64,000 bases of DNA, taken from the NCBI RefSeq assembly GCF_003572205.1, contig NZ_QXNY01000005.1:1-64000 (forward strand), in the 5' to 3' direction. The position numbers and the translations under genes were made by a program. This DNA is from Algihabitans albus (GTDB taxonomy: Bacteria > Pseudomonadota > Alphaproteobacteria > Kiloniellales > DSM-21159). The notes below the pieces were generated by a model. It did no database searches. It saw only the letters and a list, made by a program, of their open reading frames with translations, and was not told the origin of the DNA. Shown here piece after piece: positions 7,429 through 58,051 of the stretch; within the stretch, counting starts at the first letter, position 1; each line of letters starts with the position of its first letter.

Positions 7429-7468
7429 GGCGGCCGCCACTGACGTTCAGCTTTCAGATCCGCCGTTT

Positions 7469-8587: not shown

Positions 8588-8830
8588 CGTCCTGACGCCC
8601 GCGGCGCCCCTCCATGCCTTCGCGTTCCTTTTGCGCCACCGTTATGTTAAATGGATATTCTTTTTTTCTTGGATGCTAAATTATTTAGTATAACTCAGGG
8701 TAACTGTATTTGCTCCGAGATGCGCTGATTTCATTAAATCTACGTAATCTATATTTAGCTTTCAGTCTGAGACTCTTGAAAGTGCGCGGCCTCTCCCAAA
8801 GTCTGCGGAAACGCATTCAAAGGGAGTCTC
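8588..8830. promoter_or_regulatory. AT-rich upstream region of the carbonic anhydrase gene
   Basis: This gap is strikingly AT-rich (about 8640-8765) compared with its GC-rich surroundings. It contains a T-run, the perfect 13-base palindrome CTAAATTATTTAG at 8676-8688 and a nearby TAGTATAACTC. It probably holds the promoter and an operator for the secreted carbonic anhydrase. AAGGGAG lies just before that gene's ATG. The regulator is unknown. Confidence 0.45.
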
Positions 8831-42428: not shown

Positions 42429-42784
42429 GGTTTGGACTCCGCCGTTGGTTCGGGCAGTTCCTCGAGGTCGGTAAAGACCGGTTTTCCGGCGGCGCGAAAG
42501 CGCTCGACCTCGGCGTCCGCGCCGGTCGAGGCCCCGCCGATCCTCAGGACGGCGTCGCAGCGTTCGGCCAGGGCCAGCGAGATCGGCATCATCAAGTCGT
42601 CGAAACGCGCCTCGCCGGCCTGCTCGATCAGCGGCAGGGCGTTGTTGACGCCGATCACCGGGACGTGGCCGCGTTCGAAAACCGCCAAGGCCATGCGGTT
42701 CATCTCACGCAGGTTTTCGCGGCGCGTCTCCGCATCCGCGGCGCCGGCGCTGTAGGGGCCGGCCACCATGATCCAGAGCCTCAT
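42425..42784 (-). CDS. DUF4406-like small protein between hyuA and hyuB
   Basis: The 119-residue protein starts RLWIMVAGPYSAGAADAETR, then has ALAVFERGHVPVIGVNNALP and AERCDAVLRIGGASTGADAEVE. This is the pattern of DUF4406 and nucleoside 2-deoxyribosyltransferase-like folds, with a glycine loop, a helix and a C-terminal acidic segment. It is translationally coupled on both sides (4-base overlaps with hyuA and hyuB), suggesting that it works with the hydantoinase. No established function is known to me. Confidence 0.7.
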   Translation of the reverse strand: MRLWIMVAGPYSAGAADAETRRENLREMNRMALAVFERGHVPVIGVNNALPLIEQAGEARFDDLMMPISLALAERCDAVLRIGGASTGADAEVERFRAAGKPVFTDLEELPEPTAESKP

Positions 42785-44847
42785 GCTGTGCCCACCCGCC
42801 CGGTGGAAACGATCAGGTTGCCGTAGGCATCGACGGTCAGGGAGTCCCGAGGCTCCACGACCAAGGTGGTGTCGAGTTGCTGCACGATGGCGGGGCCGGT
42901 CAGCCCGGCGCCGAAGGGCAGCTTGTCGCGTGCGTAGACCGGTGTGTCCTGCCAGCCGCCCTGTCCGTACCAGACTGGCCTTTCGCCGAGGACGGCATCC
43001 TCCAGACGGTTGGCACGGGCTTCCGGCGGTAGCAGTGCCTCCAGCGCCACCGAGGGACGCTTGCCGATTACGGCTGTGTGCAGATTGACCAGAACGGGCC
43101 GAATCTCCGGCAGTTCCACCGCGAAGCGTTGCCAGTAGGCCTTGGCGAAGGCCTCGTGCAGTGCTGCGCGGCCGATCTGCGGGTCTTCCACCGCGATGGT
43201 CAGCAGATGAGTCTGTCCCTGGAATTGCATATCGGCGAAGTAGAGCGACTGGGTCTCCTCAACGGCGACGCCTTCGCGTTCGATGGTCGCAAGACCTTCG
43301 GCGGTCTGTTCGGCATAAACGGCTTCGACTTCCTGCATGTCGGCCAGCGGCAGGGGCACGTTGAGGGTGCGCACGTAATCGTGCCGAAGATCGGCGACGA
43401 TACAGCCCAGCGCATTGGTTATGCCGGGCCGTGCGGGAATCAGCACCGTCGGGATCGCGAGCTCGCGGGCCAGCGCGGTGGCGTGCAGCGGCCCTGCGCC
43501 GCCGAAGGCGAAGAGGGCGAAGTCGCGCGGGTCGTGACCGCGGGCGAGAGAAACCATACGGATCGCACCGGCCATCTTGTCGTTCGCGATGCGCAGCACG
43601 GCCGCCGCCGCCTCTTCGCCGGTCAGGCCGAGGCGTTCGCCAACCTCCCGTTCGAAGGCCGCACACAGGTCATCGAGTGAGACCGGACTGTCGACCGATA
43701 GCAGCCGAGCGGGATCGAGCCGGCCGAGCAGCAGGTTGGCGTCGGTGATGGTGGGGCGGGTGCCGCCGCGCCCGAAGCAGATCGGCCCGGGCGCCGCGCC
43801 GGCGCTTTCCGGACCGACCTGCAGCAACCCGGCTTCATCCACCGAGGCAAGGCTGCCGCCGCCCGAACCGATCGTGTGCACGTCGACCATCGGCACATGG
43901 ATCGGCATGGCATACTCCAGCTCCAACTCGCTGGAGACCGCTGGCACGCTGTCCAGGATCAGACCGACGTCGGTCGATGTGCCGCCCATGTCGTAGGTGA
44001 TGAGGTTGGCCTGGCCAGAGGCACGGGCCGTGAAGGCCGCCGCCATGACGCCGGACGCCGGGCCGGACATAACCGTCTTGACCGCTTCGGCGGCCGCAAT
44101 CTTGGCGGCAACGGTGCCGCCGTTGCCCTGCATGAGCAGCAGGTCGCGGCCGTAGCCCTGCGTCTTCAACTCTCTGGCAAGCTTCCCGAGGTAACGGTCC
44201 AGAACCGGCTGCACCGCCGCATTGACTGCAGCCGTCGTGCCGCGCTCGTACTCCCGGAACTCGCTGAGGATGGCATGGCCGAGCGTGACGTAGGCGTTCG
44301 GCCAAAGCTCGCGCGCGATCTCACCCGCGCGCAGTTCGTGTTCGGGATGGCGGTAGGCGTGCAGGAAGTGGATCACCAGCGCGTCGCAGCCCGCCTCAAG
44401 CAGGTGCCGGCAGGCCGCGCCGACTGCGGCTTCGTCAAGCGGTGTCAGCACCTCGCCGTCGGCATCGACCCGCTCGGGGACTTCCAGGCGCAGCTCGCGC
44501 GGGATCAGCGGCTCGAAGCGGCCGTACATGCCATAGGGTTGCGGGCGGGTGCGCCGTCCCAGCTCCAACACGTCACGAAAGCCGGCAGTGGTGATCAGCC
44601 CGACCTTGGCGATCTTACGCTCGAGCAGAGCGTTGGTGGTGGTGGTGGTGCCATGCACCAGTTCGGCAACGGTGGAAAGCTCGGCACCTGCCTCTTTCAA
44701 CGCGGCAAGTACGCCGAAGGCCTGATTGTCGAGGGTCGTGGGGACTTTGGCGAGGCCGAGCCGGGCCGCCCCGTCGGCGCCCCGTTCCATCAGGATCAGG
44801 TCGGTAAAGGTTCCGCCCACGTCGACGCCGACGACGACTGCACTCAT
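42781..44847 (-). CDS. Hydantoinase A / oxoprolinase alpha subunit
   Basis: The 688-residue HyuA-type subunit has the ASKHA ATP-binding start VVGVDVGGTFTDLILMERG. It continues with HGTTTTTNALLERKIAKVGL, NLITYDMGGTSTDVGLI for the adenosine/phosphate site and FALFAFGGAGPLHATALARE near the end. It is full length. It couples ATP hydrolysis to opening or phosphorylation of an amide or enol, working with HyuB. It is 42 bases downstream of livF and overlaps the DUF4406 gene by 4 bases. Confidence 0.93.
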   Translation of the reverse strand: MSAVVVGVDVGGTFTDLILMERGADGAARLGLAKVPTTLDNQAFGVLAALKEAGAELSTVAELVHGTTTTTNALLERKIAKVGLITTAGFRDVLELGRRTRPQPYGMYGRFEPLIPRELRLEVPERVDADGEVLTPLDEAAVGAACRHLLEAGCDALVIHFLHAYRHPEHELRAGEIARELWPNAYVTLGHAILSEFREYERGTTAAVNAAVQPVLDRYLGKLARELKTQGYGRDLLLMQGNGGTVAAKIAAAEAVKTVMSGPASGVMAAAFTARASGQANLITYDMGGTSTDVGLILDSVPAVSSELELEYAMPIHVPMVDVHTIGSGGGSLASVDEAGLLQVGPESAGAAPGPICFGRGGTRPTITDANLLLGRLDPARLLSVDSPVSLDDLCAAFEREVGERLGLTGEEAAAAVLRIANDKMAGAIRMVSLARGHDPRDFALFAFGGAGPLHATALARELAIPTVLIPARPGITNALGCIVADLRHDYVRTLNVPLPLADMQEVEAVYAEQTAEGLATIEREGVAVEETQSLYFADMQFQGQTHLLTIAVEDPQIGRAALHEAFAKAYWQRFAVELPEIRPVLVNLHTAVIGKRPSVALEALLPPEARANRLEDAVLGERPVWYGQGGWQDTPVYARDKLPFGAGLTGPAIVQQLDTTLVVEPRDSLTVDAYGNLIVSTGRVGTA

Positions 44848-44889: not shown

Positions 44890-45609
44890 TCACACCGTCA
44901 GGTAAGCTTGGCGCACGGTCTCGTCCGCCATCAACTCGGTCATGCTGCCCTGATAGCGGATGCGTCCGCTTTCGATCACGTAGGCACGGTCGGACAGCGC
45001 TCGAGCGAAAAAGAGATTCTGCTCGCTCAACAGAACGGTCAGGCCTTCGTGCTTCAATTTGGTAATGGTGCGCGCCATCTGCTCGACGATCACGGGCGCG
45101 AGGCCTTCCGACGGCTCGTCTAGCAGAATGGTGTCGGGGTTGCCCATCAGCGAGCGTGCGATGGTCAACATCTGTTGCTCGCCACCGGACATGCGTCCGC
45201 CCGGCCGGTCGCGCATCTCGGCGAGATTGGGGAAGAGCTCGAATAGGCGCTCCGGCGTCCACTCCGGCGCGCCTTCGCGAGGCGGTTGGCGGCCGACCTC
45301 CAGATTCTCCATCACGGTCAGGTTGGTGAAGATCCGCCGTTCCTCCGGGACATAGCCGAGCCCGGCCTGCGAGATGCGGTAGGAGGGCTGGCCGGAGATG
45401 TCGAGGCCGTTGAGATTGCGCTTGCCTCGGGCGTCGCTCACCAGACCGACGATGGACTTTAGCGTCGTCGACTTGCCGGCGCCGTTGCGGCCGAGCAGCG
45501 CGACCACTTCACCCTTGCCGACCGAGAGGGAAACATCGAAGAGAATATGGGCCCGGCCGTAAAAGGCATTCAGCCCGTCGACTGTAAGCGCGGGTACATC
45601 CGGGGTCAT
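44890..45609 (-). CDS. Branched-chain-type ABC transporter ATPase (LivF type)
   Basis: The 239-residue ATPase has VDGLNAFYGRAHILFDVSL, Walker A GRNGAGKST, KSIVGLVSD, ERRIFTNLTVMENL, the signature MSGGEQQMLTIARSLMG and Walker B ILLDEPSEGLAPVIVEQM, all LivF hallmarks. It energises import together with LivG. Its start overlaps the livG stop by 4 bases. In this operon the importer is likely for the heterocyclic or related substrate rather than amino acids, but that is inferred from context. Confidence 0.92.
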   Translation of the reverse strand: MTPDVPALTVDGLNAFYGRAHILFDVSLSVGKGEVVALLGRNGAGKSTTLKSIVGLVSDARGKRNLNGLDISGQPSYRISQAGLGYVPEERRIFTNLTVMENLEVGRQPPREGAPEWTPERLFELFPNLAEMRDRPGGRMSGGEQQMLTIARSLMGNPDTILLDEPSEGLAPVIVEQMARTITKLKHEGLTVLLSEQNLFFARALSDRAYVIESGRIRYQGSMTELMADETVRQAYLTV

Positions 45610-46391
45610 GCGCGCGCCTCCATTCCGCGCTGTGCCGCTTCGACGCCGCTGCCGCCCAGATAGATGCGCTGCACCTCCGGATTCTCACGCACAGCGTCCG
45701 GCGTACCGGCGGCGACCGTGCGGCCGCGGTCGAGCACCAGCAGGGTATCGGCGTGGGTGAAGACAACGTCCATATCGTGCTCGGTGAAGAGCACCGAGAT
45801 GCCGCGTTCCCGCACGATGTCGGCGGTCAGGGCCATCAGCGCGATCCGTTCCTTGGGCGCCATGCCCGCGGTCGGTTCGTCCATCAGCAGGAGGCGCGGG
45901 TCGTGTGCAAGCGCGATCGCAAGCTCGACCCGCTTGATGTCGCCGTAGGCCAGCAGACCGCACTGCCGCTCAGCCTGGTCAGCCATGCCGACCCGCTCCA
46001 GCACGGCCAGGGCTTCGGCCCGATAGAGTCTGCGCGCGGTCGGCAACAAGGCGCGTAGGCGGTTACGGTGGCTGATAAAGGCCATCTGCACGTTCTCCAC
46101 CACCGTCATCGCCGTGAAGGTGGCGGCGACCTGAAAGGTGCGCCCAACGCCCAGCCGCCAGATCCGGCGCGGCGGCAGGCCTGCAATATCCTGTCCGGCC
46201 AGGCGGACCCGCCCGGCATCTGGCAGCAGCTGCCCGCCGACCATGTTGAAGCAGGTGGACTTGCCGGCACCGTTCGGCCCGATGATGGCGAACAGCCGGC
46301 CGGCCGCCACTTCGAAAGATACGGTATCGACCGCGACCACGCCGCCGAAGGCCTTGCGCAGTCCTTCGACCTGCAATACCGCCTCCGTCAT
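45606..46391 (-). CDS. Branched-chain-type ABC transporter ATPase (LivG type)
   Basis: The 261-residue ATPase has LRKAFGGVVAVDTVSFEV, Walker A GPNGAGKST, GVGRTFQVAATFTAMTVVENV, signature LAYGDIKRVELAIALA (Gly-Asp in place of GGEQ), Walker B LLMDEPTAGMAPKERI and switch HD in LFTEHDMDVVFTHAD. The LivG-type C-terminal region follows. Overlaps of 4 bases with livF on one side and with the permease on the other show translational coupling. Confidence 0.92.
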   Translation of the reverse strand: MTEAVLQVEGLRKAFGGVVAVDTVSFEVAAGRLFAIIGPNGAGKSTCFNMVGGQLLPDAGRVRLAGQDIAGLPPRRIWRLGVGRTFQVAATFTAMTVVENVQMAFISHRNRLRALLPTARRLYRAEALAVLERVGMADQAERQCGLLAYGDIKRVELAIALAHDPRLLLMDEPTAGMAPKERIALMALTADIVRERGISVLFTEHDMDVVFTHADTLLVLDRGRTVAAGTPDAVRENPEVQRIYLGGSGVEAAQRGMEARA

Positions 46392-48298
46392 GTCCGCGCC
46401 TCCACGCGGCCATCCTTACCCGTCTCCTTCTCTATCGCGTCGCCGGGATCGTCATCAGGCAGCAGCTTGTCGCGCAGGAAGCCGGCGATCCCCATGGGAA
46501 AGACGATCACCAGCACCAGGATGGTTGCCCCCAGCAGCGCGCGCCAGTAGTCCGTCAGCGGCAGAATCTGCGCCTCCAGCAGATGGAAGACGGCGCCGCC
46601 GACCAGAGGGCCGGTCAGGGTCTGAATGCCGCCCAGCAGCACCATTACCAGCGCGTCCACCGAGGTGGGAATGGCGAGGGAGCCCGGGTCGATGTTGCCT
46701 TTGGAGAAGACGAAGACGCTGCCCGCGACGCCGGCGCAGGTCCCGGCCAGGGCGAAGGCCAGCCATTGATGGCGCTTGAGGTCGATCCCGATGGCGTCGG
46801 CGCGCAGAGTGGAATCGCGCCCGGCGCGCAGAGTGTAGCCGAACGGTGCGTGGCTGGCCCGCCAGAGGAAGGCGATAGCCGCGCCGCAGACCAGCAGCGA
46901 GAGGTAGTAGTAGACGGTCCGGTCGCTGGCCCAGCCCGACGGCCAGATGCCGATCATCCCGTTGTCGCCGCCGGTCACCTCCACCCACTGGAACGCCGTC
47001 GACCAGACGATCTGGGCGAAGGCCAGCGTCAGCATCGCGAAGTAGACCCCCGACAGGCGCACCACGAACCAGCCGAACAGCAGCGCTCCCAGGCCGGCGA
47101 ACAGTGGTGCGGCCAGCATAGCGACTTCCATGCCGAAACCGAGATGGTGCACCAGCAGCGCGGCGCCGTAGCCGCCAAGCCCGAAGTAGGCGGCGTGGCC
47201 GAAGGAGACCATGCCGCCGGCCCCCATGATGAAATTCAGGGAGAAGGCCAGCAGGGCATAGACGAAGACCTCGAGCGCCAGCTTCTGGCCGTACTCCCCG
47301 AGGATCAGCGGCAGCAACAGCAGAACGGCGACCGTGCCGGCGATCAGCAGTTGTTGCGTACGGCCCAGCGGTCGCAGTGGGCGGTCGCCGGCAAAGCCGT
47401 GGCTGGTCGTGGTTTCCGGCTTGCCGAGCAGTCCCCAGGGACGCACCACCAGCACCAGGGCCATCACCAGGAAGGGCAGAACCAGCGTGATCTCGGGGAA
47501 GACCAGGATGCCGAAGGCCTGGAGTTGGGCGATGATCAATGCGGCCAGGAAGGCTCCCAGCACGTTGCCCATGCCGCCGATCACGGTGACGACGAAGGCT
47601 TCGGCGATGATGTTGACGTCCATGAAGGGATTGGCTGGCTCGACCGGAAGCTGCAGCGCACCGGCCAGGCCGGCGAGGAAGCCGCCGAGAAAGAGCACGC
47701 CGGTGAACAGCCGCGCCTGATTGACGCCCAGCGCGCCGACCATCTCGCGATCCTGCGTCGCGGCGCGTACGAGGTTGCCCCAGCGCGTGCGGTTGAACAG
47801 CAGCCAGATCGCACCTAGCACCAGAGGCCCTGCGGCGATCAGCACGAGCTGATACTCGGGAAAACGGAAGCCGAAGATCACCACGAAGGAGGTGAAGCCG
47901 GGCGCGCGGGGTCCGAAGAGTTCTTCAGGTCCCCAGACCGTTTGAACGAGGTCCTGGACGATCAGCACCACGCCGAAGGTGGCTAGCAGCTGGAACAGTT
48001 CGTGGGACCGGTAGATCCGCCGCAGCAGCAACAGCTCCATCACGACGGCGAGCAGTCCGACGGCGACGGCCGCGAGCGGGATCGCCAGCCAGAAGCCGAG
48101 TACGTCTCCCAGGATCGGCATAATCTGGGCGGTCAGCGTGTAGGCGAGGTAGGCGCCCAGCATGTAGAAGCTGCCATGCGCGAAGTTCACGATCCGCGTG
48201 ACGCCGAAGATGATGGTGAGGCCGCAGGCGATCAGGAACAGGTTGGACGCGCTCGCGAGGCCGCTGAGAAACTGTAGGAAGATGAAGGCGGGATCCAT
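46388..48298 (-). CDS. Fused LivH-LivM ABC permease
   Basis: The 636-residue protein joins both permeases of a Liv importer. Residues 1-310 are LivH-like (LFLIACGLTIIFGVTRIVNFAHGSFYMLGAYLAY, with VTVIGGMGNVLGAFLAALI at the end of that half). Residues 320-636 are LivM-like (FMMGAGGMVSFGHAAYFGLG replaced here by FIMGAGGMVSFGHAAYFGLG, and LVMVLLGGIQTLTGPLVGG). A linker of about 30 hydrophilic residues separates them. Fusions of this kind are known in alphaproteobacteria. About 14-16 helices are expected. It is 97 bases downstream of the binding protein gene. Confidence 0.9.
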   Translation of the reverse strand: MDPAFIFLQFLSGLASASNLFLIACGLTIIFGVTRIVNFAHGSFYMLGAYLAYTLTAQIMPILGDVLGFWLAIPLAAVAVGLLAVVMELLLLRRIYRSHELFQLLATFGVVLIVQDLVQTVWGPEELFGPRAPGFTSFVVIFGFRFPEYQLVLIAAGPLVLGAIWLLFNRTRWGNLVRAATQDREMVGALGVNQARLFTGVLFLGGFLAGLAGALQLPVEPANPFMDVNIIAEAFVVTVIGGMGNVLGAFLAALIIAQLQAFGILVFPEITLVLPFLVMALVLVVRPWGLLGKPETTTSHGFAGDRPLRPLGRTQQLLIAGTVAVLLLLPLILGEYGQKLALEVFVYALLAFSLNFIMGAGGMVSFGHAAYFGLGGYGAALLVHHLGFGMEVAMLAAPLFAGLGALLFGWFVVRLSGVYFAMLTLAFAQIVWSTAFQWVEVTGGDNGMIGIWPSGWASDRTVYYYLSLLVCGAAIAFLWRASHAPFGYTLRAGRDSTLRADAIGIDLKRHQWLAFALAGTCAGVAGSVFVFSKGNIDPGSLAIPTSVDALVMVLLGGIQTLTGPLVGGAVFHLLEAQILPLTDYWRALLGATILVLVIVFPMGIAGFLRDKLLPDDDPGDAIEKETGKDGRVEART

Positions 48299-48395: not shown

Positions 48396-49604
48396 CTACT
48401 CGGCGGGTCGGGCCGCCTTCACCGCCTCAGGCGTATGAGCGAAGTCGGCGCCGTCGGCGTAGTACCAGTCGACCATCTTGCCTTGGCCGTCCTCGACCGT
48501 CAGGCGTCCGACCCAGGCACCCATCGTTGCCTGATGATCAATGGCGCGCATGGTGATGGGACCCGTCGGCGTCTCGACCTCCAGGCCCTTGAGCGCGTCG
48601 ATCATGGCGTCGGTCTCGGTGGATCCGGCCTTATCGAGCATCGCCTTGATGACGTAGGGAATGGAGTAGCCGAGCAGCGACGCCAGGCGCGGGAAGTCGT
48701 CGTACTTGGCCTGATAGGCTTCGACGAAGGCGAGGTGTTCCGGCGTGTCGATCTGATCCCAGGGATAGCCCGTAACGATCCAGCCTTCCGGCGTTTCGGC
48801 TCCCATCGGGACGAGGTACTCCGGCTCCCCGGTCAGCAAGCTGAGCACCGTGCGCTCCTCGAAGAGACCGCGAAGTTGTCCCTCGCGCACCAGCTTGGCC
48901 TGGTCGCCGGCGAAGGTCGCATTGAAGATGCCGTCGGGGTTGGCGCGCAGGATGGCCTGCGTCGTCGCGCCGGCATCGATCTTGCCGAGGGCCGGGTATT
49001 GTTCGACCACCACTTCGGCTTCCGGGTCCATCTCGGCCAGGAGCTTCTTGAAGTTCGCGGCGGCGGACTGGCCGTACTCGTAGTTCGGCGCCACGATGGC
49101 CCAGGTCTTGGCTCCGGACTCCTTGCCGGCTTCAACTAGCATCTTGGTCTGCATGTAGGTGTTGGGCCGCATGCGGAAGGTGTAGCGGTTGCCTTGCGCC
49201 ATGGTGATGGCGTCGGTCAGCGGCTCGGCTGCGATGAAGAGGGTCTGCTTCTGCTTGGCGTAGTCGCCGACCGCGAGGCCGACGTTGGAGAAGAAGGTCC
49301 CGAAGAGAAAGGCGACGTCCTCGTTGGTCACCAGCTCGTCGGCCACGCGCACCGCGTCGGCTGTCGTGCCGCCGTCGTCTCGGCTGATCACCTCGAGGGT
49401 CTTTCCACCCATCACGCCGCCGGAGGCGTTGATCTCCTCCACGGCAAGCTGCCAGCCCTTCCGGTACGGGTCGGCGAAGGCCGCCATGCGGGCGTAGGAA
49501 AAAAGTTCACCGACCTTGACGCTGTCCTGGGCCTTGGCCGGGGTGAAGGCGGTACTTGCGGCCAGCAGAGCCGCCCCCGCGATCAGAAGGTGTCGCCTCA
49601 ACAT
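48396..49604 (-). CDS. Liv-type ABC transporter substrate-binding protein
   Basis: The 402-residue periplasmic binding protein has a signal peptide (HLLIAGAALLAASTAFTPAKA) cleaved before QDSVKVGE. The mature part is a type I periplasmic fold: GWQLAVEEINASGGVMGGKT, ADELVTNEDVAFLFG, KTWAIVAPNYEYGQSAAANF and NPDGIFNATFAGDQ. Such proteins bind amino acids, aromatic acids or amides. ATG 49604 gives the signal peptide and has GGGAGAACAGG upstream. It starts the transporter part of the operon, just after the DUF1185 gene. Confidence 0.92.
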   Translation of the reverse strand: MLRRHLLIAGAALLAASTAFTPAKAQDSVKVGELFSYARMAAFADPYRKGWQLAVEEINASGGVMGGKTLEVISRDDGGTTADAVRVADELVTNEDVAFLFGTFFSNVGLAVGDYAKQKQTLFIAAEPLTDAITMAQGNRYTFRMRPNTYMQTKMLVEAGKESGAKTWAIVAPNYEYGQSAAANFKKLLAEMDPEAEVVVEQYPALGKIDAGATTQAILRANPDGIFNATFAGDQAKLVREGQLRGLFEERTVLSLLTGEPEYLVPMGAETPEGWIVTGYPWDQIDTPEHLAFVEAYQAKYDDFPRLASLLGYSIPYVIKAMLDKAGSTETDAMIDALKGLEVETPTGPITMRAIDHQATMGAWVGRLTVEDGQGKMVDWYYADGADFAHTPEAVKAARPAE

Positions 49605-49639: not shown

Positions 49640-50224
49640 CTAGCGCAGGCCGTCCTCTCCCTTGATCTCGCTGGCTTGAAGTCCTTCGACGCGCGCATGA
49701 GGGCGCGGACCGGAGGTCATGGCCAGAATGTAGACAAGCTCGTCCGGGCGCGGTGCATCGGGCAGGCGCACCTCTATCGCCGTGAAGTGGCTTCGCACGT
49801 AGGCTGCGTTGACATGGTGAACCGGAATGTCGATCGCCGTGCCGAGAGTGCCGACCTTCTTGGACGAGGGCACGATGGCCTGGGTGTGGCCCAGCACCTC
49901 GCGCATCCCCCAACCGCCCGGCACGTGCCAAAGCGCGCCGTGTTCCAGTTCGCCGGCGGCGCCGACGATGGCGCCTTTGCCGTACCCCTGGATCTCCTCC
50001 GGTCCCTTTCCCATGGCGGAGACCAAGCGTTCCGCCATCTCCTTACCGACCGGTTTCAGCGCCTCCATCAGCGGCGTGATCTCTTCGACGTAGCCGCCGG
50101 CGTAGGGGTTGTTCATCACCACCGCAACGGTGCCACGAATCAGCGGCTCGGCCAAGGCGGGGCCGAACTCGTGCCGCTCCTCCTCGACGAAGGTGGCGAT
50201 CTTGCGGATGGCGATCAGGTCCAT
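49640..50224 (-). CDS. AA_synth (DUF1185) family protein
   Basis: The 194-residue protein belongs to the PF06684 family: IRKIATFVEEERHEFGPALA, RGTVAVVMNNPYAGGYVEEI and GKGAIVGAAGELEHGALWH are typical. Known structures of this family have a chorismate-mutase/YjgF-like trimeric fold, and a role in amino acid or related metabolism was suggested from context only. Here it overlaps UPF0280 by 10 bases and follows the reductase-like gene, so it may handle an unstable enamine or imine made in the pathway. That is a hypothesis. Confidence 0.88.
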   Translation of the reverse strand: MDLIAIRKIATFVEEERHEFGPALAEPLIRGTVAVVMNNPYAGGYVEEITPLMEALKPVGKEMAERLVSAMGKGPEEIQGYGKGAIVGAAGELEHGALWHVPGGWGMREVLGHTQAIVPSSKKVGTLGTAIDIPVHHVNAAYVRSHFTAIEVRLPDAPRPDELVYILAMTSGPRPHARVEGLQASEIKGEDGLR

Positions 50225-51093
50225 GGAAGGCTCGTCTCCTCTTGGCGGTCCGGTACGGCCCGGCTTTGTTCTCGCAGAGACAGCAGCGCCGCGTGGATCA
50301 GGCCAGCCCGATGCATCTGCGCGGCCAGCTGCGCTCCGGCGGTCAGGGCGGTCTCAATCTCGTTCGGGCTCAATGGCCCCACCGCGGTAACCACCGGCAA
50401 GGCACTCAGGTCGCTGTCGCTATCGATCTCACAGGCCGGGCGCCGCCGAACGTTCGGATGGTCCTCCAGATCCACGGCGTTGGCGATCAGCGTTGCCGCG
50501 ACATCGGCCTCGGCCGCGCTGGCGGCCAACACCGTGACGGCGTCGGCAAGCCCGCGTGACAGGCTGCGGCCTTGGCGACCGGAGGTGGCCAGTCCGCGCG
50601 TCGGCAGATCGTGAGTCAGCGTGACCTGGCCGCTCGGACCCCAGTCCGCCAGATCGGCAACCAGTCCGATGTCGAGGCTTTCGCCCGGCGCCAGATGCAC
50701 GGCGATGTCGCCGCCGTCGTTGACCCAGGCGCGGGTGAGACTGCGCTCCTCGATCAGGGCGGCGAGAACATGATCGGCGATGGAGCCTGCCACCGCAGCC
50801 ATGGGGGTCACCCAGAGTCTTTCGTGGGGTCGGCAGGCCTCCGCCATGGCTCTTGCCACGGGATGGCGCAGCCGGTGCGGCTCCGCCCCGAGCGGCCGTC
50901 GCAATTCCGGGAGTTCGCGCGCGAGTTCGGCGAGCAGTCCCTCGAAAGCCGTGATCGCTTGTCTGTAAGCCTCCTGCACGTCGTCCGGCGCTCCTTCGGC
51001 CTTGATCACCAGATCGATGGGGCCGTCCTGCAGGTGGAGTCGGCCGCCGGTCAGCGTTGGCGCCACTGCGGTCCGCCGGGCCAGCGGCCTCAT
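50215..51093 (-). CDS. UPF0280 family protein
   Basis: The 292-residue protein matches the UPF0280 group, distantly like the ApbE flavin transferase fold. The key region is MAAVAGSIADHVLAALIEER with AWVNDGGDIAVHLAPG and RGLATSGRQGRSLSRGLADAVTVLA, where the TSGR and DAVTVL segments mirror ApbE motifs. Function is unknown; flavin attachment or a related transfer is an idea. ATG at 51093 overlaps the reductase stop (ATGA). The gene continues into the AA_synth start by a 10-base overlap. Confidence 0.85.
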   Translation of the reverse strand: MRPLARRTAVAPTLTGGRLHLQDGPIDLVIKAEGAPDDVQEAYRQAITAFEGLLAELARELPELRRPLGAEPHRLRHPVARAMAEACRPHERLWVTPMAAVAGSIADHVLAALIEERSLTRAWVNDGGDIAVHLAPGESLDIGLVADLADWGPSGQVTLTHDLPTRGLATSGRQGRSLSRGLADAVTVLAASAAEADVAATLIANAVDLEDHPNVRRRPACEIDSDSDLSALPVVTAVGPLSPNEIETALTAGAQLAAQMHRAGLIHAALLSLREQSRAVPDRQEETSLPWT

Positions 51094-52619
51094 GGTCGCC
51101 CGCCTTTGCTCTGTTCCAGCGGCCAGGGGTTCTCGTCGCGCCAGCGCGCGGCCTTGGCACTCTCGCCTTGCTCCCTCAGCACCTGCTCCAGCGGGACCAC
51201 CGCGCCGGCATGGCCACCCAAGGCCTCGTAGTCCGCCTTGGGCATGGTGAACTCCATCGGCGCCACGATGGCTGGTGTCGGAACGTAGCCGAAGGCGTTT
51301 TCCGGCATGCGGGTCACATCGACCATCACGGTGATGCCGCCGCCTGGCCAGATATAGACCGGAGCTCCGCCCATGGTGACGCGGGTCAGCGCCTGCTTGA
51401 CCGACTGGGTCAAGTGTACCGGATTCTCGGTGACGCCGGCCCGCAGGCTGCCGCCGGCCCCGGCCATGAAGATCACGGAGCAGAGCGCCGGCTCGCAGTT
51501 TTCGCCGATGCGCTCCACGACCTTGCGCACCGCTGCTGGGATCTCCCGCTGCTGCGGCCTCAGTTCTTCGTCCAGGACGCAGTAGAGCGCGTCTTCGCCG
51601 GTGGTCGAGGTGAGCAGAAGCCGCAAGCCCGGCCAGGCGGTCTTGGGATCGATCTTCTCGACGATGGACAGCGGGTCGGTGATGTCGGTACCACCCCAAC
51701 CGCTGCCCGGCTCGGCCACCTGGAAGTAGCGGCCCGGCGTCGACTTGCGGCCGCGCACGCGGATGCCGGACAGCGGCATGTCGAGGCAACGTCCCGCCTG
51801 GTGTTCCGTTAAGACACCGGTGATGTGATCGTCCAGCACGATCACCTCGTCCACCTGTCCGTGCCATTGCTGGGCGAAGATTCCGACGGTGGCCGATCCG
51901 CAACCGACCCGCATCCGCTCTTCCGGGTGGCCGTTGACGATCGGGGCGCGGTCGGCCTGCACCGTGACGGTCGCGCCCTCTTCGATCTCCAGCTCGACGG
52001 CCTCGCCGCTGCAGAGTTTCAGCAGCGTGTCGCAGGCGATGTTGCCTTCCTTCTTGCTGCCGCCTGTCAAGTGCCGCACGCCGCCGAGAGAGAGCATCTG
52101 AGAGCCGTACTCGGCGGTCGTGACGTGACCGACCATCTCGCCGGCCGCGCGCACCGGTGCCGTCTCCGGCCCGAGATGGCGGTCCGTGTCGATCTTCACC
52201 TTGACGCCGCAGTAGCTGAAGATGCCCTCGGTGACGACGGTGACCGTATCGACGCCGCCGTACTGACTGGAGACGATGAAGGGCGCCGGCTTGTAGTCAG
52301 GATAGGTGGTTCCGCTGCCAATCCCGGTCACGAAGGTCTCCGCATTGGCCAGCAGACGACCGTCCCACTCCTGGCCCTGCGCGTCCTCGGCCTGGAAAGG
52401 CACCATGACCCCGCCCGCTTCGGCGACGCGCTGGCTGAGGACCAGCGGATCGCTGCGCGTCAGCAGGCCGTCCTCGTTGGCATAGCGCCCACAGGCGCCG
52501 ACCCGGCCTGGCCTGATGCGGCAGAGCACTGGACAGGCGTCGCAGCGCACGATGCCCTGATCGCCTTCGCGCGCGCCGTACTTCTGCATCTCTTGGGAAG
52601 GTGGCGCTCCGTTAGCCAT
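51090..52619 (-). CDS. 6-hydroxynicotinate reductase-like protein
   Basis: The 509-residue protein resembles 6-hydroxynicotinate reductase, which in Eubacterium barkeri and Azorhizobium-type nicotinate pathways reduces 6-hydroxynicotinate to 1,4,5,6-tetrahydro-6-oxonicotinate using ferredoxin. Cys26, Cys29, Cys33 and Cys43 (CDACPVLC then GAC) could ligate a 4Fe-4S cluster. Other conserved-looking parts are TEGIFSYCGVKVKIDTDRH, MRVGCGSATVGIF and IWPGGGITVMVDV. Its start overlaps the molybdenum subunit stop by 8 bases. The exact substrate in this organism is inferred from family and context. Confidence 0.78.
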   Translation of the reverse strand: MANGAPPSQEMQKYGAREGDQGIVRCDACPVLCRIRPGRVGACGRYANEDGLLTRSDPLVLSQRVAEAGGVMVPFQAEDAQGQEWDGRLLANAETFVTGIGSGTTYPDYKPAPFIVSSQYGGVDTVTVVTEGIFSYCGVKVKIDTDRHLGPETAPVRAAGEMVGHVTTAEYGSQMLSLGGVRHLTGGSKKEGNIACDTLLKLCSGEAVELEIEEGATVTVQADRAPIVNGHPEERMRVGCGSATVGIFAQQWHGQVDEVIVLDDHITGVLTEHQAGRCLDMPLSGIRVRGRKSTPGRYFQVAEPGSGWGGTDITDPLSIVEKIDPKTAWPGLRLLLTSTTGEDALYCVLDEELRPQQREIPAAVRKVVERIGENCEPALCSVIFMAGAGGSLRAGVTENPVHLTQSVKQALTRVTMGGAPVYIWPGGGITVMVDVTRMPENAFGYVPTPAIVAPMEFTMPKADYEALGGHAGAVVPLEQVLREQGESAKAARWRDENPWPLEQSKGGRP

Positions 52620-55362
52620 GCCCGGCCTCCCGAAGAAGCGCGCGCAGGCGATGAGGCAGGGCCGGTGCCTGGCGGACCACCGCGCCGGTGGCGTGACGGA
52701 TGGCGCCGAAGATCGCCGGTGCCGTCGGGACCAGGGCCGGCTCGCCGATGCCCTTGGCACCGTAAGGGCCCAGCGGTTCGGGATCTTCGATCAGATGAAT
52801 GTCGATCTCCGGCACGTCGCCGAAGCTCGGGATCAGATAGTCATGCAGGTTCTCTGTACGTCCGGGCAGGTACTCTTCCATCAGCGCCAGCCCGATGCCC
52901 TGGGCGATGCCGCCGTGAATCTGCCCCTCGACCAGCATCGGATTGACCGCCTTGCCGACGTCGTGCGCGGCAACGATCCGCCGCAGCGCGACCGTGCCGA
53001 GATCCAGGTCCACCGAGAGGTCCGCGAGCTGTGCCGCGAATCCGTAGGTGGCATAGGGCGTTCCCTGACCTTTCTCGTCGAGCGGCGTGGTCGGCGGATC
53101 GAAGCAGCCATAGCCCTCCAGGTCCTCCGCCAAACGGGCGAGGTCGATCTCTTGGCTGCGGTCGCCTTCGATCACCTGGACTCGCGACGCCCGGAGACGA
53201 AGTTTCGCGTCCGGTCCCGCGTTGGCGAGACGCAGCAGCTTGCTGCGCAGGTCGAGGCCGGCCAGCTCCGCGGCCTTGCCGGAAACGAAGGTCTGGCGCG
53301 AGGCGGAAGTCTTGCCGGCATCCAGCGTCAGATCCGTGTCGCCGACCACCTGGGCGAAGGCTTCGAGGGGCAGGCCCAGCGCATCGGCGCAGATCTGAAG
53401 CATGATCGTCGCCGAACCCTGGCCGATATCGACCGCCCCGTTGTACAGCGTCAGGCGACCGTCGCGATCCAGCACCACCCGCATTTCGGAGGGATTGGCG
53501 AGCGCTGTGTTGCCGATGCCGTACCACATACAGCCGATGCCGACGCCGCGTCGTCGCCGCCCCGACGTGGTGCTGTTGAAGACTTCGGCCTCGGCGCGCA
53601 GCCTCTGCCAGTCCGGCCGCAGGGCCTCCAGGCAGGTGGCGAGCCCGGCCGAGTGTTCCAGCCTCTGTCCCGTCGCCGTGGTGTCGCCGCGCCGGATGGC
53701 GTTGAGGTGCCGGAATTCGAGCGGATCGAGGTCGAGCTGTGCCGCCAGGTCGTCCATCAGGCACTCGTGGGCGATAGCGGCCTGCGGCACGCCGAAGCCG
53801 CGGAAGGCGCCGGCTGGTGTCTCGTTGGTATAGATCGCCCGGCTGCGCACCCGCACATGCGGCAGGGCATAGGGTCCGCTGGCATGCACCGGAACGCGGC
53901 CGGCGACGGTCGGACCCCAGGAGGCGTAAGCGCCGGTATTGAAGTCGCCTTCGAAATCGAGAGCCCGCAGCTTGCCGTCGGCTTCCGCCGCCGCGCGGGC
54001 GGTGATGTGCGAGGGGTGTCGCTTGGTGGTCGCCGCCATGGACTCGTTGCGGCTGAAGAGGGCGCGGACCGGCCGGTTCGACACCATCGCCGCGACTGCC
54101 AAGAGCGGTTGCAAGGCGACGTCCAACTTGCCTCCGAAGCCGCCGCCGCAGGCGCTGGGAACGATTCTGACGGCCTCGACCGCTAGACCGGCGACCCGCG
54201 CCACCTCGTCCCGGTCCATGTAGGGGGCTTGGGTGCAGCCAAAGACGGTCAGCCCGCCGTTTTCGCGCAGGGCATAGCCGGCCTCCGGCTCGATATAGGC
54301 ATGCTCGACGAAGCCGGTGCTCCAGCTCCCCTCCGACCGTGCGGCCGCATCTTCGAAGGCGCTCTCCGGCGCACCCTTCTCCAGGTAGCCGCGGATCAGC
54401 ACGTTGCCGTTGGAGGCGTCATGGAGCTGCGGTGCGTCCGGTGCCCTGGCCGCAGCCATGCCGATCACGGGTTCCAGGACCGTCCAGGCGATGGGGATTT
54501 GCTCGAGAGGTAGGGACTCCACTGTCGCGCGGTCGCCGACCAAGGCCAGCACGGCCTCGCCCCGGTACCGTACCGCACCGGAGGCGAGCACTGGCTGGTC
54601 CTTCAGGTGCGGATAGATTCCATAGGAGTTCTCGCCGGGCACGTCGGCGGCCGTCAGCACGTGCCGCAGCCCGGGAAAGGCAGCACGGAGCGGCGCCAGA
54701 TCGCCGATCTCGAAGGTTGCCCGCGCATGCGGCGACCGCACGGCTCGCAACCAGAGCGCCCCGGCCGGGGCGGTGTCGGCGCCGAAGCGGTCGTCGCCGG
54801 TGATCTTCGGCAGGCCGTCGCGACGCGGTATCGCTTGCCCGACCGAGGGGCCGCTTTCGGCACTGAGATTGCCGGGGGCTGCGAGATGCGGGGCCGCGCG
54901 CACCGCCTCGACGATCTTGCGGTAGCCGGTGCAACGGCAGAGCACGCCCCCCAGTGCGTCCTCGACCTGGCGTTCCGTCGGGTCCTGCACGCGGGCCAGC
55001 AGGTCGGCGGCCGCCATCAGCATGCCGGGCGTGCAGATGCCGCATTGAGCGGCGCCGTGCAGATGGAAGGCGCGCTGCAGGGCGGAGAGCTGTTCCTGGT
55101 CCGCCAGCCCTTCGACCGTGGTGATCTCGCGTCCTGCGGCTTGGCCCAGCGGCACCAGGCAGGCACAGACCTGCCGGCCATCCAGCAGCACCGTGCAGGC
55201 GCCGCAGTCGCCGGCATCGCAACCGACCTTGGTGCCGGTCAACCCCAACTCGTGACGCAGCACGTCGGTCAGGCGGGTGAAGGGCGCCGCCGCTACGCTC
55301 CGTGGCTCGCCGTTGACGGTCAGGGAGAGCGTGGTTCCGGCACTGCCGGCATCCGGGCTCAT
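52612..55362 (-). CDS. Molybdenum hydroxylase, fused 2Fe-2S and molybdopterin subunits
   Basis: The 916-residue protein fuses two parts of a xanthine-dehydrogenase-family enzyme. Residues 1-160 are the 2Fe-2S subunit: Cys48, 53, 56 and 68 form the plant-type cluster, with CGICTPGML and CRCTGYRKI for the second. Residues 185-916 are the Mo-cofactor subunit with PSACGGGFGGKLDV and the catalytic Glu in GAKGIGEPALVPTAPAIFGA. It would hydroxylate an N-heteroaromatic carbon next to nitrogen. FAD sits on the separate subunit encoded just upstream with a 4-base overlap. Nicotinate-type hydroxylase is a reasonable guess. Confidence 0.9.
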   Translation of the reverse strand: MSPDAGSAGTTLSLTVNGEPRSVAAAPFTRLTDVLRHELGLTGTKVGCDAGDCGACTVLLDGRQVCACLVPLGQAAGREITTVEGLADQEQLSALQRAFHLHGAAQCGICTPGMLMAAADLLARVQDPTERQVEDALGGVLCRCTGYRKIVEAVRAAPHLAAPGNLSAESGPSVGQAIPRRDGLPKITGDDRFGADTAPAGALWLRAVRSPHARATFEIGDLAPLRAAFPGLRHVLTAADVPGENSYGIYPHLKDQPVLASGAVRYRGEAVLALVGDRATVESLPLEQIPIAWTVLEPVIGMAAARAPDAPQLHDASNGNVLIRGYLEKGAPESAFEDAAARSEGSWSTGFVEHAYIEPEAGYALRENGGLTVFGCTQAPYMDRDEVARVAGLAVEAVRIVPSACGGGFGGKLDVALQPLLAVAAMVSNRPVRALFSRNESMAATTKRHPSHITARAAAEADGKLRALDFEGDFNTGAYASWGPTVAGRVPVHASGPYALPHVRVRSRAIYTNETPAGAFRGFGVPQAAIAHECLMDDLAAQLDLDPLEFRHLNAIRRGDTTATGQRLEHSAGLATCLEALRPDWQRLRAEAEVFNSTTSGRRRRGVGIGCMWYGIGNTALANPSEMRVVLDRDGRLTLYNGAVDIGQGSATIMLQICADALGLPLEAFAQVVGDTDLTLDAGKTSASRQTFVSGKAAELAGLDLRSKLLRLANAGPDAKLRLRASRVQVIEGDRSQEIDLARLAEDLEGYGCFDPPTTPLDEKGQGTPYATYGFAAQLADLSVDLDLGTVALRRIVAAHDVGKAVNPMLVEGQIHGGIAQGIGLALMEEYLPGRTENLHDYLIPSFGDVPEIDIHLIEDPEPLGPYGAKGIGEPALVPTAPAIFGAIRHATGAVVRQAPALPHRLRALLREAGHG

Positions 55363-56228
55363 GCCGCCATCTCACCGGCTTTATCGGTGAGGTCCAGCAG
55401 CGCCCGGCGGACCAGGGTGAGCGCCGTGTCGCGCCGATAGTCCGCCGAGCCGCGCACGTCGTCGATCGGACTCAACAGGCCGAGATGGTCCGTTTTGACC
55501 ACTGCCGCGAGGGCGGCGTCGCAAGGCTTGCCCAGCAGCGCCGCCTCCAGATCCGGCAGGCGCTGGGCGGCGGCGGAGCAGCTTCCCACCGCCAGCCGCG
55601 CCGCCGTCACCGTGCCGGCGTCCACTTCCAGTGTTGCCGCGACCATGACGATGGAGATCACCAGATAGCTGCGGGCGCCAAGCTTGAGAAAGGTCGATCG
55701 TGCTGGTCGACGCGGCTTCGGAACCAGCAGGGCGACCAGCAACTCGTCGTGGCGGCGCGCCGTGCTGCGGTTGCCGAGAATGAAGTCGCTCAGCGGCAGA
55801 CGCCGCCGCCCGGCTTTCGAGGCCAGCTCGACCTCGCAGTCGAGGGCCAGCAATGGCGGCACGCCGTCCGCGGCCGGCGAGGCGTTACAGAGATTGCCGG
55901 CCAGGGTACCGCGGTTCTGGATTTGCCGGCCCCCGACCGTACGACCGGCCATGCGCAGTCCGTCGAAACAGGCGGGGAGGGACCCTTCGATCGCCTCGGT
56001 CCAGGTGGTCAGAGCACCGAGGCGCCAACCTTCGGGCGTTTCCTCCATCCCACACAGGTCCGGCAGGGCCGAGATATCGAGAATGTCGAGGTCGGGAGCT
56101 CGGTTCCAGGCGGCGAGGTTGGCTTGTGCGGGGTAGACGTCGGTGCCGCCGGCAAGCGGCGTGTAGGGGCGTTCGGCGAGCGCATCCAACGCTTGCGAGA
56201 GCGTGCTCGGCCGAATGTAGACCCCCAT
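55359..56228 (-). CDS. Molybdenum hydroxylase FAD-binding subunit
   Basis: The 289-residue medium subunit has the FAD-binding start YIRPSTLSQALDALAERPYTPLAGGTDVYP, then GGRQIQNRGTLAGNLCNASPAADGVPPLLALD, the flavin phosphate-binding motif of CoxM/XdhB proteins. It passes electrons from the 2Fe-2S clusters to FAD and on to an acceptor. ATG at 56228 is chosen because family members begin near MGVYxRP; an earlier start at 56297 is possible. It is the first gene of the 12-gene operon and divergent from the TRAP operon. Confidence 0.92.
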   Translation of the reverse strand: MGVYIRPSTLSQALDALAERPYTPLAGGTDVYPAQANLAAWNRAPDLDILDISALPDLCGMEETPEGWRLGALTTWTEAIEGSLPACFDGLRMAGRTVGGRQIQNRGTLAGNLCNASPAADGVPPLLALDCEVELASKAGRRRLPLSDFILGNRSTARRHDELLVALLVPKPRRPARSTFLKLGARSYLVISIVMVAATLEVDAGTVTAARLAVGSCSAAAQRLPDLEAALLGKPCDAALAAVVKTDHLGLLSPIDDVRGSADYRRDTALTLVRRALLDLTDKAGEMAA

Positions 56229-56509
56229 GGCGTCCCCGTTTCGGTGTCCCGGCCGCGGTGCCAAGATGGTCCGCCCCGCCGGTTTCTTCGCTGGCAAGTT
56301 GACCGGAAGGCTCTCCGTCGAGTCAAGCCGGCAGAACGAATATGGGATACGATACCTGGGGTTGTAGGATGCCCGCGGTGCGCGGTCCCGGCGCGGGTCG
56401 GCAACGGGGTCTGCCGGATCGTTTTGGCGCTTGCATCGCCGCCGCCGCTCGGCTTGTCTGCGGCTCCGGCCTGTGTCGTCGCCTGCTGTCTGCTGTTCCG
56501 GGAACCGAG
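56229..56509. promoter_or_regulatory. Divergent promoter region between the heterocycle operon and TRAP operon
   Basis: The 281-bp gap holds no gene that I can support. It must drive the 12-gene operon leftward and the TRAP operon rightward. The stretch around 56340-56360 (TATGGGATACGATACC) is a weak imperfect palindrome and could be a regulator site. No regulator gene lies beside it, so control may be by a factor encoded elsewhere. Confidence 0.5.
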
Positions 56510-57535
56510 ATGATTCATCACATCCTGCGCTTTGCCGTCCCGCTTGCCGCCGCGCTCTTTACGGCCTCCATCGCAGTGGCTCAGGAGGCGACGCTGCGCT
56601 TCGCCCACTTCATGCCGGCCAATGCCTGGCAGCATGTCGAACTGTTCGAGGCCTGGGCGACCTCGGTCGAGGAAGCCTCCGACGGCCGGCTCGCCGTCGA
56701 AGTCTATCCGGCGCAGACTCTCGGCAAGGCGCCGCAAGGCTACGACAACGCTCGCAACGGCATTGCGGAGATCGCTTGGACCGTCCAGGGCTATACCGCC
56801 AACCGCTTTCCGCTGAGTCAGCTCGTGGAGCTGCCCGGCCTCTTCGAGACGGCGGAAGTGGGTTCCTGCGCGTTTCAGCAGCTTTACGACAGTGGCGCCT
56901 TGGACGCGGAATATGCCGATACCCACGTGCTCTTCGTCCACACGCACGGCGCCGGTCACCTGCACACCGGCGCGCGCGCCGTGACCAGCCTCGACGACCT
57001 GAAGGGGTTGCGCATTCGACGCCCGACCGCGGTGATCGGCACGCTGCTGGAGGAACTTGGCGCCGAGCCGGTCGGCATGCCGGCGCCGGCGATCTACGAG
57101 AGTGCCCAACGAGGGGTTATCGACGGCTTTCTGCTGCCCTGGGAGGCGGTCGCCGGTTTCCGCGCCGACGAGGTGTCGGACCATCACACCGAGGTCGGAC
57201 TCTATGCCCTCGCCTTCGTGACGGCCATGAACAAGGACGCCTACGCGCGGTTGCCCGACGACCTTAAGGCCGTGATCGACGCACACTCCGGCCGGGACTG
57301 GGCGTTGGCGGCCGGGCGTGGCTACGACCGAGGCGACGTCGGCGGGCGTGCCGCCACGCTGGCCAACGGCAGCCTGCAGAGCATCGAGGACCGGGCTGCC
57401 TGGGAAGCCGCGGCGGAACGCGCCCGCGAGCGTTACCTTTCCGACTTGGAAGGTCGCGGTCTGCCGGCACGGCAGACTTACGCTGCCCTGCAGGACTACG
57501 TCGCCGGGTGCCGCACTGCGCTGGGCCGACGGTAG
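56510..57535 (+). CDS. TRAP transporter solute-binding protein (DctP type)
   Basis: The 341-residue periplasmic protein has a signal peptide (LRFAVPLAAALFTASIAVAQ) and TRAP-binding features: LRFAHFMPANAWQHVELFEAW, EVYPAQTLGKAPQGYDNARNG and LKGLRIRRPTAVIGTLLEEL, with the conserved Arg in RIRRPT that usually binds the carboxylate. It delivers an organic acid to the DctQM membrane pair. ATG 56510 gives the signal peptide. It is divergent from the molybdenum hydroxylase operon, suggesting a shared substrate. Confidence 0.9.
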   Translation: MIHHILRFAVPLAAALFTASIAVAQEATLRFAHFMPANAWQHVELFEAWATSVEEASDGRLAVEVYPAQTLGKAPQGYDNARNGIAEIAWTVQGYTANRFPLSQLVELPGLFETAEVGSCAFQQLYDSGALDAEYADTHVLFVHTHGAGHLHTGARAVTSLDDLKGLRIRRPTAVIGTLLEELGAEPVGMPAPAIYESAQRGVIDGFLLPWEAVAGFRADEVSDHHTEVGLYALAFVTAMNKDAYARLPDDLKAVIDAHSGRDWALAAGRGYDRGDVGGRAATLANGSLQSIEDRAAWEAAAERARERYLSDLEGRGLPARQTYAALQDYVAGCRTALGRR

Positions 57536-57558
57536 GCGAAGGCCGGCAAGGGGCTGCG

Positions 57559-58041
57559 ATGCATCGCCTCGTCTCTCTCTTCGATGCCGTCGCCGGTCTG
57601 GCGCTGGCGCTGTTGCTGGCGGTCACGGCGGCAGGAATCCTGACGCGTCTGCTGTTCGACCTCACTGCCGGGGGGCTCGATCTCTTGCTGTCCGATGCCG
57701 TGGAGATGGCGACCTACGCCTTGTTGATCACGGTCTTCGCCGCCATGCCGCGCGCGCTTCGGGACGGACCGGTCACGATCGAGGTGTTCAGCCGGCACTG
57801 GCCGCTTTGGCTGACGGCCATACTCGACCGTCTCTGGAGTCTCTTGTTCGGGATACTGGCGGTGCTGCTCGCCTGGCGCTACGCGGGGGAGAGCCTGACG
57901 CTGCTTGCGCGCGGTGACACCACCCAGGACATGCAACTTCCGCTCTGGGGCTTCTACGCCTTCGCCGTGGTCGCCTTCGCGGCCGCTGCGCTGGTCGGCC
58001 TGTCGCTCGGTTTCGGCAGAAGCGGACGGGGCGAGCGATGA
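57559..58041 (+). CDS. TRAP transporter small permease (DctQ type)
   Basis: The 160-residue protein has four membrane helices, for example GLALALLLAVTAAGILTRLLF, ATYALLITVFAAMPRAL, LLFGILAVLLAWRYAG and FAVVAFAAAALVGLSL, as in DctQ. RDGPVTIEVFSRHW between helices 2 and 3 is a familiar DctQ element. ATG 57559 is used; the frame is open further but lies within the dctP end. The large permease follows after 10 bases. Confidence 0.85.
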   Translation: MHRLVSLFDAVAGLALALLLAVTAAGILTRLLFDLTAGGLDLLLSDAVEMATYALLITVFAAMPRALRDGPVTIEVFSRHWPLWLTAILDRLWSLLFGILAVLLAWRYAGESLTLLARGDTTQDMQLPLWGFYAFAVVAFAAAALVGLSLGFGRSGRGER

Positions 58042-58051
58042 GGAACTGGCC

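Follow-up and report, generated by a model that had tools for sequence, protein, structure and literature searches.

Gene arrangement at the locus

The window considered here is a 64,000-nucleotide stretch of DNA from Algihabitans albus (assembly GCF_003572205.1, contig NZ_QXNY01000005.1, positions 1 to 64,000), in which three adjoining minus-strand genes, whose transcription runs towards lower coordinates, encode a reductase and two proteins of poorly understood families. The first, at 51090-52619, encodes a 509-residue homologue of 6-hydroxynicotinate reductase (HNR), so named from the annotations of its homologues and its invariant residues. Behind it, at 50215-51093, lies a 292-residue member of UPF0280 (COG2122), placed by its NCBIfam match, its co-occurrence with HNR and its position in a tree, which we propose to be a maturation enzyme for HNR. 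The trio closes with AA_synth (PF06684, formerly DUF1185; 194 residues, 49640-50224), recognized by Pfam and through its solved homologues 3byq and 2qtp. An earlier note on this DNA had described overlaps of 4 and 10 bases between these genes, and both are confirmed: HNR and UPF0280 share the bases ATGA at 51090-51093, and UPF0280 and AA_synth share 50215-50224. The molybdenum (Mo) hydroxylase gene upstream also overlaps the HNR gene, by 8 bases (52612-52619), and the coupled series therefore exceeds three genes.

Pairing of HNR and UPF0280 across genomes

Co-occurrence was followed in two samples: 299 genomes from the window's phylum, and 198 from the phylum of G299, a metagenome-assembled genome titled Deltaproteobacteria, 79 of which were searched for UPF0280. 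HNR is found in 26 of the 299 genomes, spread over 12 genera, and UPF0280 scoring over the NF003322 cut-off is found in the identical 26; here and in the following counts, congeneric genomes cannot be treated as independent. Two short matches were dropped from the first sample, a 105-base HNR fragment (G072, which brings 27 genomes to 26) and a weak 192-base match to UPF0280 (G239). The second sample holds full-length HNR in 36 of its 198 genomes, with 33 more that have only a short match, at the N-terminal cysteine region. Among the 79, with short matches to either family dropped, 14 genomes contain HNR and the identical 14 contain a weaker-scoring UPF0280, here called type 2, that adjoins HNR in each. 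AA_synth is present in 25 of the 26 and all 14 of these HNR genomes (39 of 40), and also in 24 and 1 genomes without HNR, such that 25 of 64 AA_synth genomes have no HNR. The earlier note had tied its idea of a functional trio to the three families not being rare companions, and on these counts the idea survives, with a change of shape: HNR and UPF0280 form a near-obligate pair, associated beyond chance, and the trio is not symmetric, AA_synth also occurring without HNR.

The pairing is equally apparent in gene order. A set of 100 HNR loci was assembled from 80 named contigs (the best 80 of 590 relatives, Firmicutes HNRs not being among those 80) and 20 stretches of other genomes, some genomes possibly being shared. 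UPF0280 lies on the same strand and at most 900 bases downstream of HNR in 96 of these loci; two others end at a contig end, and the last two have UPF0280 about 1.5 and 5 kb downstream, giving 98 of 98 assessable loci. An in-frame ATG, GTG or TTG sits inside a 4-base overlap with the HNR stop codon in 44 of the 96, and AA_synth follows UPF0280 in 57, being missing there from 33 loci with more than 900 bases of room. Among a further 20 loci of the second sample, UPF0280 occurs in 18 (17 plus one fragment at a contig end), that is, 18 of 19 assessable; the remaining two are an HNR at a contig end and one locus (G444) without UPF0280. Pairwise distances of HNR and type 2 UPF0280 are correlated: r is 0.89 for all 30 pairs, and 0.88 and 0.89 for sets of 14 and 15 pairs, one from each sample. 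Shared species history by itself also gives rise to such a correlation.

Plasmid records contain UPF0280 in 27 cases and HNR in 26. In the odd one, NZ_CP044550.1 from Hydrogenophaga sp. BPS33, UPF0280 is closely preceded by a gene for the IS1071 transposase, and its start is overlapped by a short open reading frame whose product matches the C-terminal end of HNR (39% over 23 residues; 19.8 bits to the HNR profile). UPF0280 here seems to be left over from a cut operon and not to stand independently. On the same plasmid a segment is repeated two or more times, IS1071 transposase genes standing between the copies; every copy has UPF0280 downstream of a short remnant of the HNR 3' end, together with Rieske oxygenase and transporter genes. 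UPF0280 stands at four places in the record.

The reductase

HNR matches no Pfam or NCBIfam family over a cut-off, returning only sub-threshold Pfam scores. All 26 plasmid homologues fall in a 60-80% identity band at coverage of at least 80%; 17 are annotated as 6-hydroxynicotinate reductase (about 60-66% identity for the named ones), 3 as hypothetical protein, and 6 carry no annotation. HNR is thus homologous over its full length to annotated 6-hydroxynicotinate reductases of plasmid records, with Hnr of Eubacterium barkeri itself outside the comparison. Alhapel et al. reportedly described, in PNAS in 2006, covalently bound flavin and iron-sulfur (Fe-S) clusters in the E. barkeri enzyme.

Conservation was examined in 35 HNR sequences, 15 from the sample of the window's phylum and 20 from the second sample. 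A cysteine motif, C26-x2-C29-x3-C33-x9-C43 (52491-52544, minus strand), is invariant in all 35 and probably supplies Fe-S ligands. Residues 236-246 (51882-51914, minus strand) form the segment MRVGCGSAT/S, with residues 236-243 and 246 invariant; C240, within the invariant stretch MRVGCGSA, is kept in 35 of 35, and the segment is a candidate cofactor site. At least 15 of the 20 second-sample HNRs possess an extra N-terminal 2x[4Fe-4S] ferredoxin domain, a lower bound since some N-termini were trimmed when starts were chosen, and the window's HNR is without one, which suggests different electron donors among HNRs. Of the three annotated HNR clusters viewed, two have a gene for ferredoxin-NADP reductase next to HNR, in one case divergently oriented.

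The AlphaFold model of HNR has a predicted template-modelling score (pTM) of 0.79. Foldseek searches of the PDB with the models of HNR and of DUF39/HcyBio (PF01837), an enzyme of homocysteine synthesis, gave no match at E values up to 0.001, a lack that does not show either fold to be new, and the two models have no clear PDB match in common. There is weak structural likeness between the HNR barrel (137-224) and the C-terminal barrel of GcvT (VIA: Z 4.7, 3.1 A, 65 residues); the best VIA row for the DUF39 model reaches Z 3.3. Kinship of HNR with DUF39 found no support at profile level: the hhalign probability stayed at 0.3% across three comparisons, which set 15 and then 35 HNR sequences against 25 and then 22 of DUF39, the repeat leaving out a wrong-frame row (L141) together with L146 and L147. 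The best segment in two of these comparisons, VDVVTTGTF against VDMVTVVTE, is a look-alike without significance, and the first comparison aligned another stretch. Separately, the HNR gene of another genome of the genus (G016; locus L056, 8725-10274) is broken into two overlapping frames, by a frameshift or a sequencing error.

Two clades of UPF0280

The window's UPF0280 belongs to the NCBIfam equivalog NF003322, scoring 367.2 bits against a cut-off of 290. Two types, told apart first by score and then by tree, split at 100/100 support in a tree of 57 UPF0280 sequences. Type 2 pairs with HNR, and type 1, present in most second-sample genomes, tracks DUF39. Among the 79 genomes, type 1 and DUF39 occur together in 51, with UPF0280 only in 2, DUF39 only in 3 and neither in 23 when fragments in G350 and G323 are counted; without those fragments the figures are 49, 2, 5 and 23. 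According to PMC5764234, homocysteine synthesis in Desulfovibrio requires COG2122 along with DUF39, and the COG2122 fitness profile tracks that of DUF39. With type 1 tied to DUF39 and type 2 to HNR, one family therefore serves two partner enzymes, one clade each. The homocysteine-synthesis protein resembles that of the window in family and in being paired with a single partner (the solved member 2o34 scores E 1.2e-9 against a profile of 16 UPF0280 sequences), and differs in its separate clade, its partner and its shorter C-terminus.

Resemblance of UPF0280 to ApbE

Comparison by hhalign of 32 type 2 UPF0280 sequences (a truncated one, L202, left out) with 16 rows of the flavin transferase ApbE, one of them an 82-residue fragment, gave a match of 100 columns at 95.8% probability (E 7.6e-9); with type 1 by itself the probability was 74.9%, over 45 columns. 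Two other profiles comprised 15 HNRs (A1: the window's plus 14 of 20, omitting near-duplicates and L056, in which HNR is split) and 16 of 21 UPF0280 sequences (A2). Three motifs on the minus strand underlie the likeness to ApbE (PF02424). N-D-G-G-D at residues 125-129 (50707-50721) corresponds to the GGD motif and reads NNGGD in most relatives. TSG..GRS...G at residues 170-181 (50551-50586) places S171 on the catalytic serine of ApbE, with the ApbE histidine loop absent. AD-x3-T at residues 196-201 (50491-50508; ADxxAT) coincides with the Asp/Thr Mg site. Ser171, Asp197 and Thr201 are kept in both types, Asp197 and Thr201 being invariant and spaced as in the Mg site; they match the Ser, Asp and Thr described for ApbE in PMC12052999 and PMC5655446. 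The protein also differs from ApbE in that inspection by eye shows no signal peptide.

A PF02424 search of the window's genome (99.28% complete) returned no match, and 11 of the 26 HNR genomes of the first sample, among them the window's, lack an ApbE scoring over the cut-off, one of the 11 having a sub-threshold match. If HNR carries covalent flavin in these 11, canonical ApbE is not the agent.

AA_synth in two kinds of cluster

AA_synth matches PF06684 at E 1.4e-69 (233.5 bits, gathering cut-off 27) and its solved homologues 3byq and 2qtp at E 6.9e-53 and 8.2e-48. The first sample has 26 AA_synth loci in 24 genomes without HNR, and 16 of these stand near trigonelline-type genes, meaning an aldehyde dehydrogenase plus a flavin reductase and/or luciferase-type monooxygenase within roughly 12 kb; the query genes came from one of the 26 loci (L231), which hence matches itself. 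Among the 16, 15 also have an alpha/beta hydrolase, and monooxygenase and flavin reductase are present together in 11. This set of dehydrogenase, reductase, monooxygenase and hydrolase we take to be that of trigonelline degradation. AA_synth/DUF1185 proteins such as TgnF and HcdD likewise sit in degradation clusters, the window's copy differing in its place beside HNR. TgnF is reported in PMC7913881 to stimulate a semialdehyde dehydrogenase.

Both the nicotinate-type and the trigonelline pathway should open a pyridine-3-carboxylate ring to a formyl- or enamine-substituted dicarboxylate, and because of this AA_synth is best placed on the ring-opened product, on which it probably acts, for example as a tautomerase, decarboxylase or aldehyde chaperone. 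Its occurrence without HNR, near trigonelline-type genes in 16 of 26 such loci, accords better with action on a ring-opened aldehyde, or on an enamine as the earlier note suggested, than with action on the reductase. Tandem AA_synth pairs occur in six loci (L045, L047, L053, L055, L227 and L229); in the four measured, one copy is about 53-61% and the other about 46-49% identical to the window's, which suggests two subfamilies acting together.

The surrounding operon

Reading in the direction of transcription, all on the minus strand, the operon begins with the Mo-hydroxylase FAD (flavin adenine dinucleotide) subunit (55359-56297, from Pfam and translation, with a likelier start near 56228) and a 916-residue subunit in which the [2Fe-2S] and molybdopterin parts are fused (52612-55362; Pfam and NCBIfam). 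The trio follows, and then a branched-chain-type ATP-binding cassette importer: a substrate-binding protein (Peripla_BP_6, 48396-49604), a permease fusing LivH and LivM types (46388-48298; Pfam and NCBIfam) and two ATPases (45606-46391 and 44890-45609, together 44890-46391), the first and last of these by Pfam. Lactamase genes come last, a HyuA or caprolactamase-alpha-like subunit proposed to open a lactam at the cost of ATP (42781-44847; PF01968 E 1.1e-86; NF050156 502 bits, under its cut-off of 1000) and a HyuB-like subunit (Hydantoinase_B, 40680-42428; PF02538 E 1.5e-162). These contents lead us to infer that the operon serves the breakdown of nicotinate, or of a closely related pyridine-carboxylate, and that the trio is part of it.

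The enzyme name in 17 of 26 plasmid annotations relates the window to Hnr of E. barkeri and to the nicotinate clusters of Azorhizobium caulinodans and Bradyrhizobiaceae SG-6C. A 2012 study (PMC3511419) describes an SG-6C Hnr 42% identical to that of E. barkeri, located among genes for the first three steps of the pathway, an ATP-binding cassette importer and two unknown conserved genes; the latter two may well be UPF0280 and AA_synth. The window differs from some relatives in ring opening: it has HyuAB (40680-44847), as do two of the three annotated clusters viewed, whereas the third (L227) has an amidohydrolase gene instead, with no HyuAB in view. HyuAB and amidohydrolase may be alternative means of opening the lactam.

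Two further features adjoin the operon. A divergent tripartite ATP-independent periplasmic transporter (56342-59356, plus strand; DctP 56342-57535, DctM 57905-59356) may be a second importer for its substrate, and a D-serine-dehydratase/alanine-racemase-type gene (PF01168, PF14031; 39540-40643, plus strand) lies at its other end on the opposite strand.

Proposed function and alternatives

We put at slightly under one half (about 0.48) the probability that UPF0280 is a dedicated HNR maturation enzyme, a His-less cytosolic flavin transferase, within a nicotinate-type operon in which AA_synth is an accessory. The Mo-hydroxylase would produce a 6-hydroxy compound, whose ring HNR, as an Fe-S flavoenzyme, would reduce with low-potential electrons, possibly from ferredoxin, and HyuAB would presumably open the resulting lactam. 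UPF0280 would bind an FAD-like dinucleotide through its GGD and TSG motifs, and Mg through Asp/Thr, in the manner of ApbE, and would pass the flavin moiety on to HNR within the cytosol, at an acceptor site without the ApbE motif and by catalysis without the ApbE histidine. AA_synth would then attend to the reactive ring-opened formyl or enamine dicarboxylate. The proposals that UPF0280 resembles ApbE and might flavinylate the reductase, both made in the earlier note, fare unequally: the resemblance is real at profile level and in the GGD, TSG and ADxxAT motifs, with an essential histidine loop missing; a maturation role is well supported by association, and flavin attachment is plausible, though to a partner without an acceptor motif.

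Several observations weigh against this reading. According to PMC12052999 and PMC5655446, His257 is the general base of Vibrio cholerae ApbE and its loss abolished transfer; the profile alignment contains no counterpart of the His257 loop in UPF0280. From the triad Ser241, His257 and Asp285, UPF0280 keeps Ser and Asp without His, the spacing Ser-16-His-28-Asp in the ApbE rows, counted by eye, agreeing with the V. cholerae numbering. The window's UPF0280 scores under the Pfam ApbE cut-off (18.4 against 25.6 bits). The ApbE acceptor motif DxxS/TGAS/T is found in none of 35 HNR sequences, and likewise in none of 24 DUF39 sequences; the nearest look-alike in HNR, GSAT/S, ends in Ala in one of the 35, and in L136. 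ApbE over the cut-off is present in 15 of the 26 HNR genomes. PMC5764234 argues for a persulfide role of type 1 and, citing others, states that homology misses the flavin-binding region; the type 2 profile suggests that it reaches that region in part. Finally, G444 (L256) has on its 14-kb contig 58 an HNR gene (7347-8894) followed by AA_synth (9048-9626) with no UPF0280, the single HNR locus with room for one and without it; the genome is outside the 79, and this contig is what was covered of it. The HNR without UPF0280 on that contig slightly lowered our estimates for a maturation enzyme and for its wider extension to DUF39 given below, and slightly raised those for two rivals.

UPF0280 might instead give HNR something other than flavin, such as a persulfide, an Fe-S precursor or a group of the adenosine mono- or diphosphate type. 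The partnership of type 1 with DUF39 (51 genomes with both, of 79), the persulfide modification put forward in PMC5764234, the invariant C240 and cysteine cluster of HNR, and the missing ApbE histidine all lean this way; the ApbE motifs that are kept, however, are those for dinucleotide and Mg rather than a sulfur-transfer site, and no cysteine is among the residues conserved in both UPF0280 types, which leaves the idea improbable in our judgment. Much the same low standing attaches to UPF0280 as a structural subunit, or a non-covalent flavin or electron carrier, of an HNR complex rather than a modifying enzyme. Strict pairing, gene overlaps and correlated distances would fit a subunit equally well, but the Asp, Thr and Ser active-site residues are conserved in both clades, and G444 has an HNR without UPF0280 beside it. 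The E. barkeri enzyme, moreover, is said to have been purified without a second kind of subunit.

A little less probable still is that UPF0280 and AA_synth act on small molecules of the pathway only, their strict linkage reflecting pathway membership alone. AA_synth behaves in just this way, given its HNR-less genomes and trigonelline-like loci, and it is AA_synth, not UPF0280, that G444 keeps beside HNR. Type 2 UPF0280, by contrast, stays with HNR while AA_synth, the Mo-hydroxylase type and the ring-opening genes vary between clusters, and its sister clade serves another pathway with another enzyme. Should UPF0280 indeed be an HNR maturation enzyme, a wider extension is conceivable, though we regard it as doubtful: a second class of protein-flavinylating enzymes, cytosolic and independent of the ApbE histidine and acceptor motif, with clades for HNR and DUF39, both partners being flavinylated and the DUF39 step being flavin chemistry.

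Implications

No activity has been established for the widespread family UPF0280/COG2122, and no link between it and 6-hydroxynicotinate reductase was found in the open-licence literature searched by family, enzyme and flavin terms. A type 2 clade tied to HNR, whose E. barkeri relative reportedly holds covalent flavin, gives the family a testable chemistry, and it could account for attachment of flavin to HNR in organisms without ApbE. AA_synth, for its part, can be seen to accompany ring opening, apparently in two pathways for pyridine-carboxylates.

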